Below, piece after piece: positions 36,814 to 43,504 of a DNA stretch of 64,000 nucleotides. The notes below the pieces were generated by a model. The model had not been told where the DNA came from. It was given only the letters and a program-made list of their open reading frames with translations, and did not search any database. This DNA comes from Natronorubrum aibiense (GTDB lineage: Archaea; Halobacteriota; Halobacteria; Halobacteriales; Natrialbaceae). Both the position numbers and the translations under genes were made by a program. The stretch lies in NCBI RefSeq assembly GCF_009392895.1, contig NZ_CP045488.1, forward strand, positions 3,162,001-3,226,000, written 5' to 3'. Numbering within the stretch: the first letter of the stretch is position 1; each line of letters starts with the position of its first letter.

Positions 36814-37217
36814 CGCTCCACCTCCGTTCGCTCTGCTCCCGTCCGGGCCGTCTCGTGATCCCTCCCTGTCCCGTATCGCTCGAGTCACGCTGCTCGAGTC
36901 CGTCACCGCTTCTCGAGCAGCCCCACTCGGTCGACCGAATGGCGGCCTGCACGTTGACCATGGTTGATGGTAACACCACACGCACGCACCACGAACTGCA
37001 TATTAACACTATGCATGTTCATTTCTCCGAGAAAACGGTGTGTGAATGATTTTCAATACGGCAGCCCCTGCGAAGGTGAATCCACCTGCCTCAGTCGAGT
37101 TCGGTGCGTTCATACCGCTGGCAGCCGTTTATGCGACCTACGAATGACTCGCAGTCGACCGACACTGTCCGACGGACGGCCCGTCGTCGAGGACACTCCC
37201 TCGAGCGCTGATCGTCC
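36814..37217. other. Intergenic region between BCCT and zinc-finger genes, 404 bases
   Basis: It holds the divergent upstream regions of both genes, including the AT-rich TTAATATG-type stretch (minus strand, near 37000-37007) and a TTTATG stretch near 37129 on the plus strand. I see no further gene or repeat. Confidence 0.45.
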
Positions 37218-37355
37218 GTGACCGACGTCGACGAGACCGACCGAGCGGGCGGCAACCCCTGTCCACTCTGTGAGACGCCGATGTACAAGCGCCACTGCAA
37301 GTACGTCTGCCCGCAACACGGCGTCGTCATCGACTGTAGCGATCCGTTTCGGTAG
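37218..37355 (+). CDS. Zinc-finger micro-protein (45 aa, HVO_2523-like)
   Basis: The frame starts with GTG at 37218 and encodes 45 residues. After a charged N-terminus it reads NPCPLCETPMYKRHCKYVC followed by PQHGVVIDCSDPFR, giving CxxC, a central HC...C and a final DC, a pattern recalled from the haloarchaeal HVO_2523 family of small zinc fingers. The role is unknown; it may bind nucleic acid or a protein partner. The second MITE copy starts eight bases after the stop. Confidence 0.7.
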   Translation: MTDVDETDRAGGNPCPLCETPMYKRHCKYVCPQHGVVIDCSDPFR

Positions 37356-37362
37356 TCAATTT

Positions 37363-37446
37363 TAAAGTAACAACTGAAACGATTTACACACGCATCGCAC
37401 AGCCGTCGTGCGATGCGGTGTGCATTGACTTTCAGTGGCTACTATA
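37363..37446. mobile_element. 84-base palindromic MITE, copy 2 (inverted relative to copy 1)
   Basis: This sequence is the reverse complement of 19338-19421 with a single difference near the left end (TAAAGTA here, TATAGTA expected). It has the same terminal repeats and inner palindrome and contains no gene. It lies between the zinc-finger gene and the Gln/Asn-repeat surface protein gene, and may act as a transcription terminator for one or both. Confidence 0.8.
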
Positions 37447-37552
37447 GCCGCCCGTCGATCGGGTTCGCGCCGCCGTCGGTCGGCCGAGTCTGATGGAACA
37501 CGACCGACGAGTTCTCAAAAAACAGCGGTCACCGCTGACCGAAATCGCTGGC

Positions 37553-39466
37553 TCAGTGTTCGTCGCGTGCTGCGAACAGGGAAGCGACGAGGAGCGCGAT
37601 GAGGGCAACACCGACACCGAGGCCGGGCATCGAGTCGTCCTCGTCTTCGGCGTCAGCCGCGGTCGTCTCGCCGGTGGAGTCGGTGTCGCCGTCGGATTCG
37701 GACGGCGTCGTGTCATCGGTAGCGTCGGTGTCGTCCGTATCGTCGTCTGCCTTCTTTTTGGCATCTTTGTCGCCGACCGTTTTATCGCCAGTGCCTTTCT
37801 TGACGTCGTCGTCGGCGGCTTTGTCAGTCCCCGTCGAATCGTCTTCCGTCCCGTTCGTTCCGTCACCGTTCGTTTCGTCTGCGCCGTTCGAATCGGTGCC
37901 GTCAGCCGGCGATGAACCGACTGTCGTGGCCTCGGTGTCACCGAACTGTACGTTTCTGTTCTCTTGGATCGTGATCTGAGATGCGTCGGCGCTCCCGTTG
38001 TCCTGAGCGATAGCGACGGCAGCCTGCTGCTGATTGACGTTGAGCTGACTGACGAACTGCGCCTGGTCGAGTGCGGCGGCCGAGTACTGGTCGCCGTCAG
38101 TCTGTTGGCCGCTCTCGCCGTCGTAATCGAGTGCCAGCAGCGAGTCTCCGTCGATCTCGTTGCCACCGATCGTCACCGTCGTCTCGTTGGTGACGACGGC
38201 TCCGGCCGCGGCCTCGAGGAGTGGCTCAGTGAGTGGGTCGGTGATTTCGGCATCTACGGCACCGACCTGCTCGTTGTAGTTTCGCTGCTCGGCCAACTGG
38301 ATCGCCGTCGCGTTGCTTTCGTTGGCCGCGATCGCCACCGCAGCACTCTGTAAGTTCACGTTGATTTGGTCTGCGCTCTGGTACTGTGTCACGCTGACCG
38401 CCTCTTCGGTGGCGTCGGCGTCGTCGGTGTCGTCGCCGTCGCTGCCGGTCGTCGACAGCACGCTACTGTTGTCGACGTCGGCAGTCGCGACGTTCATCCC
38501 CGACATCGCGTCGAGAACGGAGACGAGCTCGGTCGACGCAACCTGCTCGTTGAGATTGGTCTGGTCCGTGATCTGGATCGCCGTCGCGACGGACTCAGGG
38601 CCGACCGCGATTGCGACTGCCAGCCCCTGCTGGTTTTGATTCGTCTGGGAGACGTTCTGTGACTGGTCGATGCTGGCGACCGACGACTGGGAAGTCGCTG
38701 GATCGTTGACGGCCGTTTCGAACACCTCCGTCGACCCTTGCTGGAGGTTTTGGTTGACCTGCGTCGACCGTTGGTACGCCACCGCCTCGCTCGCGTTTTC
38801 GGCGATCGCGAATGCCGTACTCTGGTCGTTGAAGTTGACCTGATCGACGTCTTGCTCTTGGTCGGTCGATGCCTCGGTCGGCTGCGCGACATCCTGTGTG
38901 GATTCGTCGCCCATTCCGTCGGCGATACTCCAGCCGTCGAACGTCTGGTCGTCGCCAGTGCCGAACACGATGTGGACGTTTCCGACATTTTCGAAGGCGA
39001 CGTCTTCGGGCATGTCCAGGGTGTTTTCGGCGGTCGCCTCACCGACCTGACTGTTCGCGTTCTGTTGGTTCGCCTCCTGGATGGCGGTCGCCTCACCGCC
39101 GTCGATCGCGATGGAGATCGCGCCGCCCTGCCGGTTGAAGTCGACCTGCTCGACGTCCTGATACTGGACGACGTCGGCGATCTCTTCCTGATCGGTAATC
39201 GATTCGGGACGATCCGCCAACTGGGACTCGATGAACTCGTCAGCCGACCGATTCTCGAGTTCCGCCCCGAAGACGAAGTAGAGGTCCTCGCCGTGCTCGA
39301 GCGTCTGCACCGTACTTTCCGGTGTCGAACCGTCTGCCACCGCATCGTTCGTCGAACCCGTATCGGGAGCCACGCCGGCTGCACCGGCGGGGACGGCCAT
39401 TCCGACCCCCGAAAGGACGACCATCGCGGCGACGAGCAGTACTGAAAGCTGTGAACATCTGGTCAT
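37553..39466 (-). CDS. Secreted Gln/Asn-repeat surface protein, curlin-like, PGF-CTERM-type anchor
   Basis: The 637-residue protein has a signal peptide (LSVLLVAAMVVLSGVGMAV, cleavage near 30). Five repeats of about 43 residues follow, at about 101-143, 203-245, 268-310, 361-403 and 468-510. Each is two half-units, Q-x3-Q-x-N-x-N-x-Q followed by A-x-AIA and then Q-x3-Q-x-N-x-N-x-Q. This resembles the Gln/Asn ladders of curlin amyloid repeats. A long Asp/Thr/Gly/Lys linker (about 515-605) leads to SMPGLGVGVALIALL and a basic end, a variant of the PGF-CTERM archaeosortase signal. Function as fibre or adhesin is inference. No homolog is known to me. Confidence 0.8.
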   Translation of the reverse strand: MTRCSQLSVLLVAAMVVLSGVGMAVPAGAAGVAPDTGSTNDAVADGSTPESTVQTLEHGEDLYFVFGAELENRSADEFIESQLADRPESITDQEEIADVVQYQDVEQVDFNRQGGAISIAIDGGEATAIQEANQQNANSQVGEATAENTLDMPEDVAFENVGNVHIVFGTGDDQTFDGWSIADGMGDESTQDVAQPTEASTDQEQDVDQVNFNDQSTAFAIAENASEAVAYQRSTQVNQNLQQGSTEVFETAVNDPATSQSSVASIDQSQNVSQTNQNQQGLAVAIAVGPESVATAIQITDQTNLNEQVASTELVSVLDAMSGMNVATADVDNSSVLSTTGSDGDDTDDADATEEAVSVTQYQSADQINVNLQSAAVAIAANESNATAIQLAEQRNYNEQVGAVDAEITDPLTEPLLEAAAGAVVTNETTVTIGGNEIDGDSLLALDYDGESGQQTDGDQYSAAALDQAQFVSQLNVNQQQAAVAIAQDNGSADASQITIQENRNVQFGDTEATTVGSSPADGTDSNGADETNGDGTNGTEDDSTGTDKAADDDVKKGTGDKTVGDKDAKKKADDDTDDTDATDDTTPSESDGDTDSTGETTAADAEDEDDSMPGLGVGVALIALLVASLFAARDEH

Positions 39467-40096
39467 GGATACTTTCTGTTAATTTCTGATATGGTCAACG
39501 ACGTTCTTGATTTGACGACTGTCATCAACACGAACCAATGCATCGGGAATACTGTCTTTGTTATCCGGCAGTTACGGGCTAAAGAAGCCGGCGACGCAGG
39601 TAGCAGGCACAACCTAATACGGGGACGGCGGCCGGGCAGCGGATCGTCTCGAGTGGCGAGTTCACCGTTTCTCGATCGAAATCACACGGCGCGATTGGGA
39701 TGCAATACGTCGGTTTCGGGTACTGTGTCTCCGTCCCAACTGTTTCAGACCGTTCTATCCCTGAATGATCGCTTTTCAACGGTCACTGAGCGAACTCGAG
39801 TCACAAATTCCGGCGACTGCAGCGGGGGAGTTCTCACGCGTGTTGAACCCTCACCCGTCGTTTAAATATCCCGTATCGAACTCGTACAGACGATATTCCC
39901 AGACGTAATAATATCGTTTTGTCCGCCTTAGATCGTCTAATTCGCGGTTTGGATTGAAACCGTTCCCGGGGTTCATATTCATCACCGGGGTGGCTACCAA
40001 CCGGGCAACGTGCCATGAGGAGGAGGTTGGCAGCATCGACGAGACGTTGGCGACGATGAGCCGACACGTGTGCCCGACACGCGGTATACTATACAC
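39467..40096. other. Divergent intergenic region, 630 bases
   Basis: It separates the divergent Gln/Asn-repeat and Gln/Glu-rich protein genes and must hold both promoters. It is more AT-rich than the flanking genes toward 39850-39950. Short frames (for example 39491-39865) show no protein features. No tRNA or long repeat is seen. Length and divergence suggest room for regulatory sites. Confidence 0.5.
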
Positions 40097-40531
40097 ATGA
40101 AACGCGCACTCACGCTTGCACTGACGGTCGCATTGATCGGCAGCCTCACGTTCATGGGGTTCGCCGGAACGGCAGCTGCGGACACTGACATCGAGAACGA
40201 CGCTGACCTCGATGAGCAAGAGGCGGAAGCGACGACGGAACAGGATCAGAAGAACGACCAGAACGCTAACAACGACGCTGATGTCGAACAGGAGCAGGAA
40301 CAAGAACAAGAGAACAAGCTCCACCAGGGCGGCAACATCGCGGCTTCACTCCATGGTGACGCCGACGCTGGCAACGACGCAAAGCAGATCAACTACGGAG
40401 AACAGGACCAGGAAGCTGAAGTCGACCAAGAGAATGAGCAGGAGTCCGAACAGGACCAAGATGCTGACACCGAAGCCGAAAGCGAATTCGAACAGGAGCT
40501 TGACGTCGAGAACCTCCTGAGCATCCTCTAA
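40097..40531 (+). CDS. Small secreted Gln/Glu/Asp-rich protein with curlin-like segment
   Basis: The 144-residue protein has a clear signal peptide (MKRALTLALTVALIGSLTF..., cleavage after GTAAA near residue 29). The mature chain is dominated by Gln, Glu, Asp and Asn (EQEQEQEQEN, VDQENEQESEQDQD). A central segment LHQGGNIAASLHGDAD then AGNDAKQINYGEQDQ has GN-x-A and Q-x-N-x-G-x-Q spacing similar to curlin repeats and to the divergent surface protein. No C-terminal anchor is present, so it should be released or bound to other surface proteins. Start at 40097 begins at the signal peptide. Function unknown. Confidence 0.7.
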   Translation: MKRALTLALTVALIGSLTFMGFAGTAAADTDIENDADLDEQEAEATTEQDQKNDQNANNDADVEQEQEQEQENKLHQGGNIAASLHGDADAGNDAKQINYGEQDQEAEVDQENEQESEQDQDADTEAESEFEQELDVENLLSIL

Positions 40532-41558
40532 GATCGCTGTCGAAACCACACCCCGATTTCGTTCCGCGTATTTTTTCGTACCTGATCTAAGTCCAACACC
40601 GAGCAGGTAGTCGCTGTACTCATCGATCACGTCGTTCGTAGCTGCGACAACAAGTATCGATACCCGGTACGGCGTCGTGACGGCTTGACCGTCCTCGAGC
40701 CGCTTCCTGGCGCTCACTGGAATCGACGTTGTCACTGAGTCGGCCGTCGTCACGTGACCGAATTGATTCCACAACCGCCGACAGGGAGACGATTCTATCG
40801 GTCGGCAGTACTGTAACGAGTACAATTCCTGATAGCCGTGCGAGGACCAACCGTCCGCAGTGTTCGGTGCTCGTCCGTACTGTTCGGTTCAGCGTCGGGT
40901 ATCGGTCTCTCGCCACCAATACCACGCATGCCTTTTATATTGTCACTGGGCTCTCACCGCGGGGTACCCAGCCGCTGCAGCCGCCGATCGTCGGACCAGC
41001 GGCGAGCAGTTCACCGGGCTGCGCTGACCGATGCCCCGCGAACTACCTCGATGCGGCCGCCCATTCAACGGGTCGTCAGCGAGCGACAGCATCACTCGAG
41101 TGCGGCCGTCGGCGCGATCGACGAATCTCCACCGATGGTCGAAACTGGATCGATTGCAGACCAACCGGCGTCGTGCAGCCACGAACCGACTTCCCGATTC
41201 GAACGACGTCGTGGCGATTTCGATCAACGCCGTCGAGACGAACCTTGAGGGGACTCGCCTCGGAGCGGTGATGGTACACTCCGGGCACCGCGTGTGAGTG
41301 CGCCGCAGCCTCCCTTTTGTCCTCGAGTTGACGCGTCGTCACTCCGGGTGAGCAGGCGGCAGTTATCCAGCCGACATCAGTTTCGTCCGTACAACACCGC
41401 GGGAGAACTATTGTGTCTGATTCGGATACGTGACGGTGTTCGGATGAGACAGTCCGTGCGGACCGACCGATAAACCACGCTGCTATCGCTCACGGTGAAC
41501 GATAGTGTGAAAAATAAAACACCAACGGCCGGAGTAATCCGGTGGTTAGTTCGACTGT
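40532..41558. other. Gene-poor region, 1027 bases
   Basis: Several short overlapping frames on both strands (for example 40729-41271 and 41076-41342) are Arg/Ser/Pro-rich and look like chance frames. A strong TATA-like CCTTTTATAT is at 40931-40940 but is not followed by a convincing coding frame. A short hairpin with CCGGA/TCCGG lies at about 41521-41550, just beyond the stop of the surface protein gene. It may hold a non-coding RNA or decayed gene. Confidence 0.5.
40571..40576 (+). terminator. U-rich terminator candidate after the Gln/Glu-rich gene
   Basis: Six T bases occur 40 bases after the stop at 40531, in a fairly AT-rich context, fitting an archaeal U-tract terminator. Confidence 0.4.
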
Positions 41559-42827
41559 TTAGTTCTGGCGGCGGAGTGCCAGCATGGCGGCTGCGAGCAG
41601 TGCGACGAGACCGATGCCGATGCCGAAGCCGGGCAGGCTATCTTGTTCACTCTTGTTTTCCTGGTCGTTATCTTGGTCCTGGTCGGTCTCCGAGTCCTGC
41701 TCGCTGTCCTGGTCGTTATCCTGGTCCTGGTCGGTCTCCGAGTCCGTGTCTTCGTCGCCGTTCTTGTCGTCTTCGTCGCCGTTCTTGTCGTCTTCGTCGC
41801 CGTTCTTGTCGTCTTCGTCGCCGTTCTTGTCGTCTTCGTCGCCGTTCTTGTCGTCTTCGTCGCCGTTCTTGTCGTCTTCGACGCCGTTCTTGTCGTCGTA
41901 GTCCTTGTCTCCTTTCTTGGTGTAGTCTTTGTCGCTCTTCTTGGTGTAGTCTTTGTCACCTTTCTTGGTGTAGTCCTTCTCGTTGTCGCCGTCCTTGTCG
42001 TCGCCGTCCTTGTCGTCGCCGTCCTTGTCGTCGCCGTCCTTGTCGTCACCGTCCTTGTCGTCACCGTCCTTGTCGTCGCCGTCCTTATCCTCATCCTCGT
42101 TATCACCGTCATCGACGCCAGGCGTCACGGTGGCCGAATCGGAGATGCTCTCGAAGGCCCCGGCCTCATCGTAGTAGGCCTCAAGTGGTTCGCCGTCGAC
42201 GTAGATCGTCGCCGTGACGACGGTCTCCGTTTCGATCGCAGACGTGTCGATGGAGATGTCTTCGTTCACGCCGGTCAGACCGGTTGCGCTACCGAGCTCG
42301 TCCCCGTCCTCATCGGTGAGGACGACATCGTATTCGGTATCTGCATCGACGCCATCAACCACCAAAGCCCCGACGGAGACCTGATCGATGGTCTCGTCCG
42401 TCGACGTCTGGTCGTCTATGGCAATGTCGGCAGCGTAGACGGAAGCGGAGTCGGTCGCTTTCACATCATCGCTGTTCTTGTCCTCGTAGACGGTAACGGT
42501 GTACTCGCCTGGTTGCTCAACGGTCTGGAAGATTGCAGCACTGTTGAGATCCTCGTCGAGTGTCGCTTCGTACAGTACCTCACCGCTGTTCTCGTTTTCG
42601 ATCACCAGATACTGACCCGCGTGGGCGTCTACCGATTGGACGGCGAAGATCGGCTCGCCTTCTTCATTCTCGCCAACCGCTTGGTCGTTAAACGTCACGT
42701 CTTCTTCGGCGTGGTTCGCTGCTGCCCCGCCCGCAAACGCTGCGGACATGGCAACAACGGACAGGACCAGTAGTCCCGCCATCAGTACCGCACGTCCTTT
42801 CTGGAGAGCTGTTTTTTCGCTTGACAT
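41559..42827 (-). CDS. PGF-CTERM surface protein with Asp/Lys tandem repeats
   Basis: The 422-residue protein has an S-layer-type signal sequence (KGRAVLMAGLLVLSVVAMSAAFAG, cleavage near AAA). A beta-rich N-terminal domain (about 40-230) contains VTFNDQAV, YLVIENENSGEVLY and GEYTVTVYEDKN segments typical of haloarchaeal surface glycoproteins. A stalk of tandem repeats follows: KDGDD units, KDYTKKGD units, seven KNGxEDD units, and SETDQDQDND repeats. The end LPGFGIGIGLVALLAAAML plus RRQN is a full PGF-CTERM signal, processed by archaeosortase A for lipid anchoring. The repeat stalk probably carries the domain away from the cell. Function unknown. Confidence 0.85.
   Translation of the reverse strand: MSSEKTALQKGRAVLMAGLLVLSVVAMSAAFAGGAAANHAEEDVTFNDQAVGENEEGEPIFAVQSVDAHAGQYLVIENENSGEVLYEATLDEDLNSAAIFQTVEQPGEYTVTVYEDKNSDDVKATDSASVYAADIAIDDQTSTDETIDQVSVGALVVDGVDADTEYDVVLTDEDGDELGSATGLTGVNEDISIDTSAIETETVVTATIYVDGEPLEAYYDEAGAFESISDSATVTPGVDDGDNEDEDKDGDDKDGDDKDGDDKDGDDKDGDDKDGDDKDGDNEKDYTKKGDKDYTKKSDKDYTKKGDKDYDDKNGVEDDKNGDEDDKNGDEDDKNGDEDDKNGDEDDKNGDEDDKNGDEDTDSETDQDQDNDQDSEQDSETDQDQDNDQENKSEQDSLPGFGIGIGLVALLAAAMLALRRQN
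41749..41895 (-). repeat. 21-base tandem repeat, seven copies, inside the surface protein stalk
   Basis: The unit TCTTCGTCGCCGTTCTTGTCG is repeated seven times in a row; six copies are exact and the last has one change. It encodes the seven-residue unit KNGDEDD. Near-perfect identity means copy number can change by slippage or recombination. Confidence 0.95.
41986..42090 (-). repeat. 15-base tandem repeat, seven copies, inside the surface protein stalk
   Basis: The unit TCGCCGTCCTTGTCG is repeated seven times with one-base changes in two copies and two changes in the last. It encodes the five-residue unit DKDGD/KDGDD. It is another candidate for length variation. Confidence 0.92.
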
Positions 42828-43504
42828 TTGTTGTATTGTATTATTATTGTATTTCGCTTGAGTGGGTCTCTAGCTGATCTTCAGTGTTGTGAGCTCGATG
42901 GCGCCCAGTCTCGACGGGAACCGTCGCTGACTGGCTCTTCGTGGCCGAAGAGCGCGAACGTACCCGCACCTGCCCCCGTGACGTTCACGAGGCCAGCACG
43001 TTCTGTACGCCGCAACCGTTCGATTTTGCGTACCATCTGTCTCACTCACCCTTTCGGGGCGAAACAGGCTATTTCGAGATGTAACTTTAATATACACCGC
43101 AATGAATTCGGAATAGATCGACTATCGTTTCGAATTATCCGCCTAACCGGTGTCTACACACCGCGTTATCCTCATCGATCAGTTCGTGGTGACTCGAGCG
43201 AGAAATCAACGCCAGTGCCCAACGGTGTCGAGCACATCGACGCGCAGTAGGCACTGCCATCAGTCCGCGTCCGGCCTTGCGGAACGGAAAATACGTCACC
43301 AAAACCAGTCGGTGCCTCGTCGTTTCACTGGGTACTGGCAACTGTTGGAAATCTCGCAACTCACGAAACGCGACCGACGTTGCCAGCAGCCAGTCGGTCA
43401 AGAGGCGACTACTGACGAAACGATTCCAGCCGTTCAACCCCTCCCAAATAAATCACAGACAGTGTGAAAGAACGACGAACCGCTTCTGCAGGGGACGAAC
43501 CGAG
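42828..43504. other. Divergent intergenic region, 677 bases
   Basis: It lies between the divergent PGF-CTERM protein and FSWGTV-repeat protein genes. AT-rich TTATTATTG at 42839-42847 is next to the surface protein start, and AAATAAATC near 43446-43454 is a TATA candidate for the downstream gene. Short frames across it are not protein-like. The region near 43080-43110 is notably AT-rich. Nothing else is recognised. Confidence 0.5.

Follow-up and report, generated by a model that had tools for sequence, protein, structure and literature searches.

Curlin repeats are about 23 residues long and carry Q-x-G-x2-N and N-x-hydrophobic-x-hydrophobic-x-Q motifs (PMC3521004, PMC10192328), and enterobacterial CsgA, which has four to five of them, polymerises (PMC3521004). 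In FapC, each repeat forms one cross-beta layer of about 52 residues, with variable linkers between repeats and conserved Asn/Gln residues in a dry core (PMC12392863). Both proteins have minor partners, CsgB for CsgA and FapB for FapC. As for archaea, Dueholm et al (2012) mentioned one protein with curli-like repeats (PMC3521004), and a 2020 review lists the amyloid protein of Haloferax volcanii biofilms as "Not identified" (PMC7582709). In agreement with the preliminary description of this DNA, we found no haloarchaeal amyloid protein of the type presented here in the searchable literature.

The window (the whole stretch of 64,000 nucleotides that was analysed) encodes a large protein with Gln/Asn ladders and, upstream and divergent, a small one. 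The data below give good support to a secreted protein of putatively stacking repeats with a one-unit partner. Our leading explanation, to which we give even chances, makes the large protein the major subunit of a secreted surface or matrix polymer of functional-amyloid type, which forms by repeat stacking and has a one-rung nucleator or cap.

The major protein and its divergent partner

The major protein contains ten strict ladders (Q-x3-Q-x-[ND]-x-N-x-Q), arranged as five pairs with a spacing of 27–28 residues (Table 1). In 20,000 shuffles of its composition, strict ladders averaged 0.004 and never exceeded one, so that the Gln/Asn ladders reported earlier in five repeats are borne out, as is the A-x-AIA segment between paired ladders, which is present in all five units. 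The repeats were real but had been given as about 43 residues long; a full unit spans ~48 residues, and the linkers between units ~20–90. Secretion had also been proposed, and a Sec-like N-terminal signal is seen by inspection. The tail, MPGLGVGVALIALLVASLFAARDEH, previously read as a PGL variant of PGF-CTERM, scored 31.9 bits against TIGR04126 (PGF_CTERM; NCBIfam cut-off 24.5), and archaeosortase A is encoded in the same genome (TIGR04125, 333 bits). These features of the major protein, namely ladders, units and tail, are firm.

Table 1. Features of the locus, with positions in the window
Feature	Position	Strand	Basis
Major protein, secreted, five double-ladder units, 637 aa, ATG start	37553..39466	(-)	ORF; family alignments (35 and 62 members)
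PGF-CTERM sorting signal, residues 610–635	37562..37639	(-)	TIGR04126, 31.9 bits (cut-off 24.5)
Acidic spacer rich in Thr/Asp/Gly, residues 520–607	37646..37909	(-)	By inspection
Unit 5, residues 466–513, ladders at 470 and 497	37928..38071	(-)	Strict pattern; unit alignment
Unit 4, residues 359–406, ladders at 363 and 390	38249..38392	(-)	Strict pattern; unit alignment
Unit 3, residues 266–314, ladders at 270 and 298	38525..38671	(-)	Strict pattern; unit alignment; AF2-predicted strands
Unit 2, residues 201–248, ladders at 205 and 232	38723..38866	(-)	Strict pattern; unit alignment; AF2-predicted strands
Unit 1, residues 99–146, ladders at 103 and 130	39029..39172	(-)	Strict pattern; unit alignment
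Sec-type signal peptide, ~residues 1–30	39377..39466	(-)	By inspection: hydrophobic core, then AGA
Conserved upstream element TAACTGCCGGATAACAAAGACAGT, 85 bp before the major gene	39551..39574	(-)	Alignment; unique in the genome; core in 13 loci
Small secreted partner, 144 aa, Gln/Asn/Asp-rich, one degenerate unit	40097..40531	(+)	Unit profile; conserved divergent position
Single-unit region of the small partner	40283..40420	(+)	HMM positions 1–47 matched to residues 63–108

Natronorubrum, Natrinema and some others have kept the element TAACTGCCGGATAACAAAGACAGT ~85 bp ahead of the large gene, where it is possibly a promoter or regulator site. An Rfam scan of window positions 36900–43300 gave no match. 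Further along, at 41559–42827 (minus strand), a 422-aa surface protein is encoded that combines halo_sig_pep and PGF-CTERM signals with long tandem repeats of KDGDD/KNGDED; its place beside the locus is conserved only in Natronorubrum and Natrinema.

The open reading frame of the small partner is listed from a GTG at 40070, and its likely start is MKRALTLALTVALIGSLTFMGFAGTAAA. Against the unit profile the protein scored 20.1 bits, the maximum of its own shuffles being 5.6; weak composition-driven Pfam and NCBIfam matches were disregarded. Judged by its sequence, it is a single-unit relative of the major protein. Among other Natrialbaceae the partners reached as much as 60 bits, and in Haladaptatus, where two single-unit genes lie upstream of the large copy, 63 bits. 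Such genes number one to three per locus, upstream and divergent, typically ~500–1,500 bp from the large gene; they encode secreted proteins of ~90–215 aa with a signal peptide in common (Sec-type, by inspection), which in several genera consist of exactly one unit. Whole-genome searches with the family profile picked up the partners next to the large gene unprompted (E from 1e-6 to 1e-12). In Natronorubrum bangense, for example, the locus comprises DV706_RS17015 with DV706_RS17005/17010.

Counted either by the unit profile or by signal plus Gln/Asn content, a partner is linked at 32 of 42 Sec-type loci. Its presence is associated with the state of the ladders: of these loci, 30 of 32 carry one when eight or more strict ladders are present, against two of ten when there are six or fewer (Fisher p = 1.5e-5, uncorrected for phylogeny). 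Ladders are decayed (four to six strict) in the Sec-type copies L059, L065, L066, L113, L114, L115, L117 and L118, and such copies mostly lack a small partner. No linked partner was found at the 12 Tat-type loci (a set that includes L108, moved there by eye), although the ladders are kept there; some genomes with only a Tat-type copy have unlinked single-unit genes.

Distribution of the family and its relation to curlin

By profile search the family was found in 99 of 125 Natrialbaceae genomes, covering 26 of the 29 genera, and in five genomes from three other families of the order; the remaining non-Natrialbaceae haloarchaea of the 391-genome sample yielded no member. Named database records come from Natronorubrum, Natrononativus, Haloterrigena, and Haladaptatus and Halomicrococcus plasmids, where the proteins are labelled as hypothetical or as PGF-CTERM proteins; the family is hitherto unannotated. 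Several copies are carried on large haloarchaeal plasmids, and the typical locus adjoins radB or other core genes. A viral or mobile origin was considered and rejected, as no relative was found in the viral contigs searched.

The number of units is nearly fixed at five across the family, and the members differ in export and anchoring. Among 82 unique sequences (including two fragments; kinds assigned by simple motifs), 50 have a Sec signal without anchor, 17 a Sec signal with PGF-CTERM, and 15 are Tat-like, often with a Lys-rich tail. The genome to which the window belongs has a second copy, of this last kind (G000:C2:225605-227050, L002), which is Tat-type, lacks an anchor and has a Lys-rich tail. 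Because PGF-CTERM occurs in only 17 of 82 relatives, the anchor is a lineage-specific addition and not a core feature of the family. The cell anchoring proposed earlier thus stands for the window copy and fails as a family trait.

The ladder spacing had been equated with that of curli, which did not survive comparison: curlin repeats are ~23 aa long with other motifs. The Pfam curlin model PF07012, which does recover E. coli and one haloarchaeal genus, did not match the window protein even with the cut-off relaxed to E ≤ 10, nor any of 62 family members, nor anything in its own genome. The full curlin motif (N-x-hyd-x-hyd-x-Q x G x x N-x-hyd-x-hyd-x-Q, ~23 residues) occurs in none of the 62 members, against ten occurrences in an archaeal curlin control. 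Alignment of the family profile with CsgA, CsgB and the archaeal curlin by hhalign gave a probability of 0.2%, and BLASTP against CsgA an E of 2.1. With Pfam, motif, hhalign and BLASTP all negative, curlin membership was rejected at profile level. CsgG was not found in the own genome, which is not decisive given that archaea have no outer membrane.

Genuine PF07012 secreted proteins of 207–245 aa do occur at L040:1303-2037(-), L141:994-1617(+) and L142:1357-2037(-), the first with ten full curlin motifs and a Sec-like signal. Such curlin-repeat proteins are limited to one Natrialbaceae genus (4 of 391 Halobacteria genomes), where both families coexist.

Anatomy and predicted structure of the unit

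Conservation was measured on the unbiased 62-member alignment of diverse family members and not on our set of 215 units of equal length, whose selection by regular expression had predetermined some ladder positions. The 50 ladder positions had a mean identity of 0.94, compared with 0.42 for other Q/N positions (Mann–Whitney p = 1.4e-11) and 0.39 for all remaining positions, and the invariant columns were mostly ladder residues and alanines. Such extreme selection on the ladder Gln/Asn is as expected of a stacking core.

In the 215 units, residues alternate strictly: one face starts with Q Q V Q N N Q and, past a parity slip that is probably a beta-bulge, goes on with A A A up to a D/N-G-S-type turn, beyond which it continues as A A Q S Q N N Q G A A. 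This ladder face has practically no charged residues, whereas several positions of the other face are charged in 28–49% of units; that face is hydrophobic around its middle (positions 5, 7, 14, 16 and 26) and elsewhere often charged. Across 283 units, N-x-S/T sequons number 137 in the short turns versus 79 in the strands, although these are Asn-rich and much longer, a clustering suggesting that the turn is exposed.

An AF2 model of units 2–3, for which the alignment was deepened with internal repeats, reached a pLDDT of 76.2 and a pTM of 0.50 and contains four strands of ~23–28 residues, two long ones per unit, in line with the beta strands expected over the ladders. For residues 40–525, modelled from a seven-sequence alignment, the pLDDT was 35. 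Foldseek searches of the PDB and viral libraries with the two-unit model returned nothing significant; the top rank was FapC (9nqd; E = 0.22, TM 0.12). Covariation of the same position across units was weak (p = 0.03 overall, p = 0.14 for neighbours alone) and strongest for units two apart, which exchange between repeats could explain.

Interpretation and comparison with known systems

Our leading explanation would work as follows. Each ~48-residue unit would form one rung, made of two long beta strands joined by a short exposed turn, with one face of both strands presenting an almost invariant uncharged stripe. The five rungs, joined by variable loops, would stack so that Gln/Asn side chains form hydrogen-bond ladders, and subunits stacking end to end would build a filament, for which the small divergent protein, a lone rung, could act as nucleator or cap. 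Export would be by Sec, or by Tat in the paralogous lineage; the window copy would then be tied to the cell by archaeosortase, while the relatives, mostly without the tail, may be released or held non-covalently. Two traits of functional amyloids with imperfect repeats are seen in the family: selective conservation of Gln/Asn at ladder positions, and secretion together with a smaller homologue encoded close by. Polymerisation, in-register stacking, nucleation, amyloid nature and a role in biofilm or matrix are what we infer, whereas the sequence architecture, the family and its conservation, the homology and position of the single-unit partner and the predicted strands are what the data show. 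The fullest form of the explanation is advanced tentatively, at somewhat less than even chances: a dedicated haloarchaeal functional amyloid of major subunit and one-rung nucleator that arose independently of curli and Fap, its acidic and possibly glycosylated exterior suiting molar salt, with archaeosortase anchoring as an option.

The strongest competing explanation, which we consider rather unlikely, is a monomeric surface protein whose five units stack within one chain only, giving a short rigid beta-solenoid or the beta-sheet stalk of a surface glycoprotein or adhesin, and no polymer. A unit count of almost always five, unlike open-ended polymers, would suit such a stalk, as would PGF-CTERM on the window copy and 16 others and the glycosylation sequons in the turns; other conserved residues in the N-terminal region and first linker (F66, G67, W179) could cap the stack. 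Yet most relatives have no anchor, conservation sits on the ladder and not on a ligand-type patch, and enterobacterial CsgA has four to five repeats yet polymerises (PMC3521004). A one-unit partner with the same ladder in a conserved position is, moreover, hard to explain without pairing between molecules.

A quite improbable alternative is that the Gln/Asn face binds extracellular polysaccharide or a crystal surface, like the Thr/Asn arrays of ice-binding proteins. The protein is secreted, and its flat, invariant, uncharged Q/N/A face on two long predicted strands has the look of such an array; however, Gln is atypical of known surface-binding arrays, and no carbohydrate-related neighbours were recognised at the loci. 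Gln is long, flexible and rare in surface-binding arrays, and typical of buried ladders.

We see only a slim chance that the unit is an antiparallel beta-hairpin and the whole protein a sheet or barrel of ten strands (5 x 2). In the AF2 model the strands of units 2–3 are separated by turns of 3–4 residues and confidence peaks around them, the palindromic Q-x-N-x-N-x-Q suits antiparallel pairing, and long beta-hairpins of pore proteins are among the short low-rmsd local Foldseek matches, so that hairpins within a unit are as compatible with the data as arches. Against this, within-unit antiparallel covariation showed no peak, the second face is partly charged and unfit for a membrane barrel, and linkers of up to ~90 residues would be unusual in a barrel. 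Finally, a true CsgA homologue acquired from bacteria, which five imperfect Q/N-rich repeats and a smaller partner might bring to mind, is scarcely credible given the negative Pfam, motif, hhalign, BLASTP and CsgG searches.

Haloarchaeal biofilms stain for amyloid, the protein being listed as unidentified (PMC7582709). The family supplies named genes in most Natrialbaceae; if our explanation holds in its fullest form, it would be a first identified protein candidate for an amyloid-type matrix in haloarchaea. Should fibres form, a third lineage, an archaeal one, would have come anew to the design of an imperfect Gln/Asn repeat plus a small nucleator. It would have done so in near-saturated salt, under altered hydrophobic and electrostatic forces, which would be of use for amyloid design rules and materials.

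Among known archaeal systems, the haloarchaeal matrix of Haloferax volcanii biofilm stains with Congo red and ThT, the protein behind the signal not being identified (PMC4180959); the family was found in only five sampled genomes outside Natrialbaceae. The sheath amyloids MspA of Methanosaeta and SH of Methanospirillum would share with our candidate an archaeal, extracellular, beta-rich and amyloid-like nature (PMC7582709, PMC10593813), but they form sheath hoops with a cap domain in other archaeal lineages and are not such repeat-ladder proteins. The tail of the window copy is that of PGF-CTERM/archaeosortase A surface proteins, a sorting signal that most relatives do not have.

Like curli CsgA/CsgB, the system has five imperfect repeats with Gln/Asn ladders, a strand–turn–strand repeat, and secreted major and minor subunits encoded side by side (PMC10192328, PMC3521004). 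Unlike curli, its repeat is ~48 and not 23 residues long, the curli motifs are absent, the conserved face is Gln/Asn/Ala where that of curli is hydrophobic, and the genes are divergent, with no csg-like neighbours and no CsgG in the genome. Sequence similarity to FapC/FapB was likewise not detected, neither as a Pfam match among the 62 members nor as a PDB match of the family profile (FapC 9nqd being among the solved structures), and the best reading is that the proposed polymer system evolved independently of curli and Fap. It also differs from Fap in having five units instead of three, an Ala/Gln/Asn face on two long strands in place of a Greek key of five short ones, and no outer-membrane export. 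In common with FapC/FapB (PMC12392863), it would combine a ~50-residue rung per imperfect repeat, variable linkers (35–259 residues for FapC linker 2), a conserved Asn/Gln array as in the polar core of FapC, and a separate minor homologue. By analogy, the layout of major and minor genes would repeat that of CsgA/CsgB and FapC/FapB; the five-repeat count recalls CsgA, and the closest architecture appears to be that of FapC/FapB.
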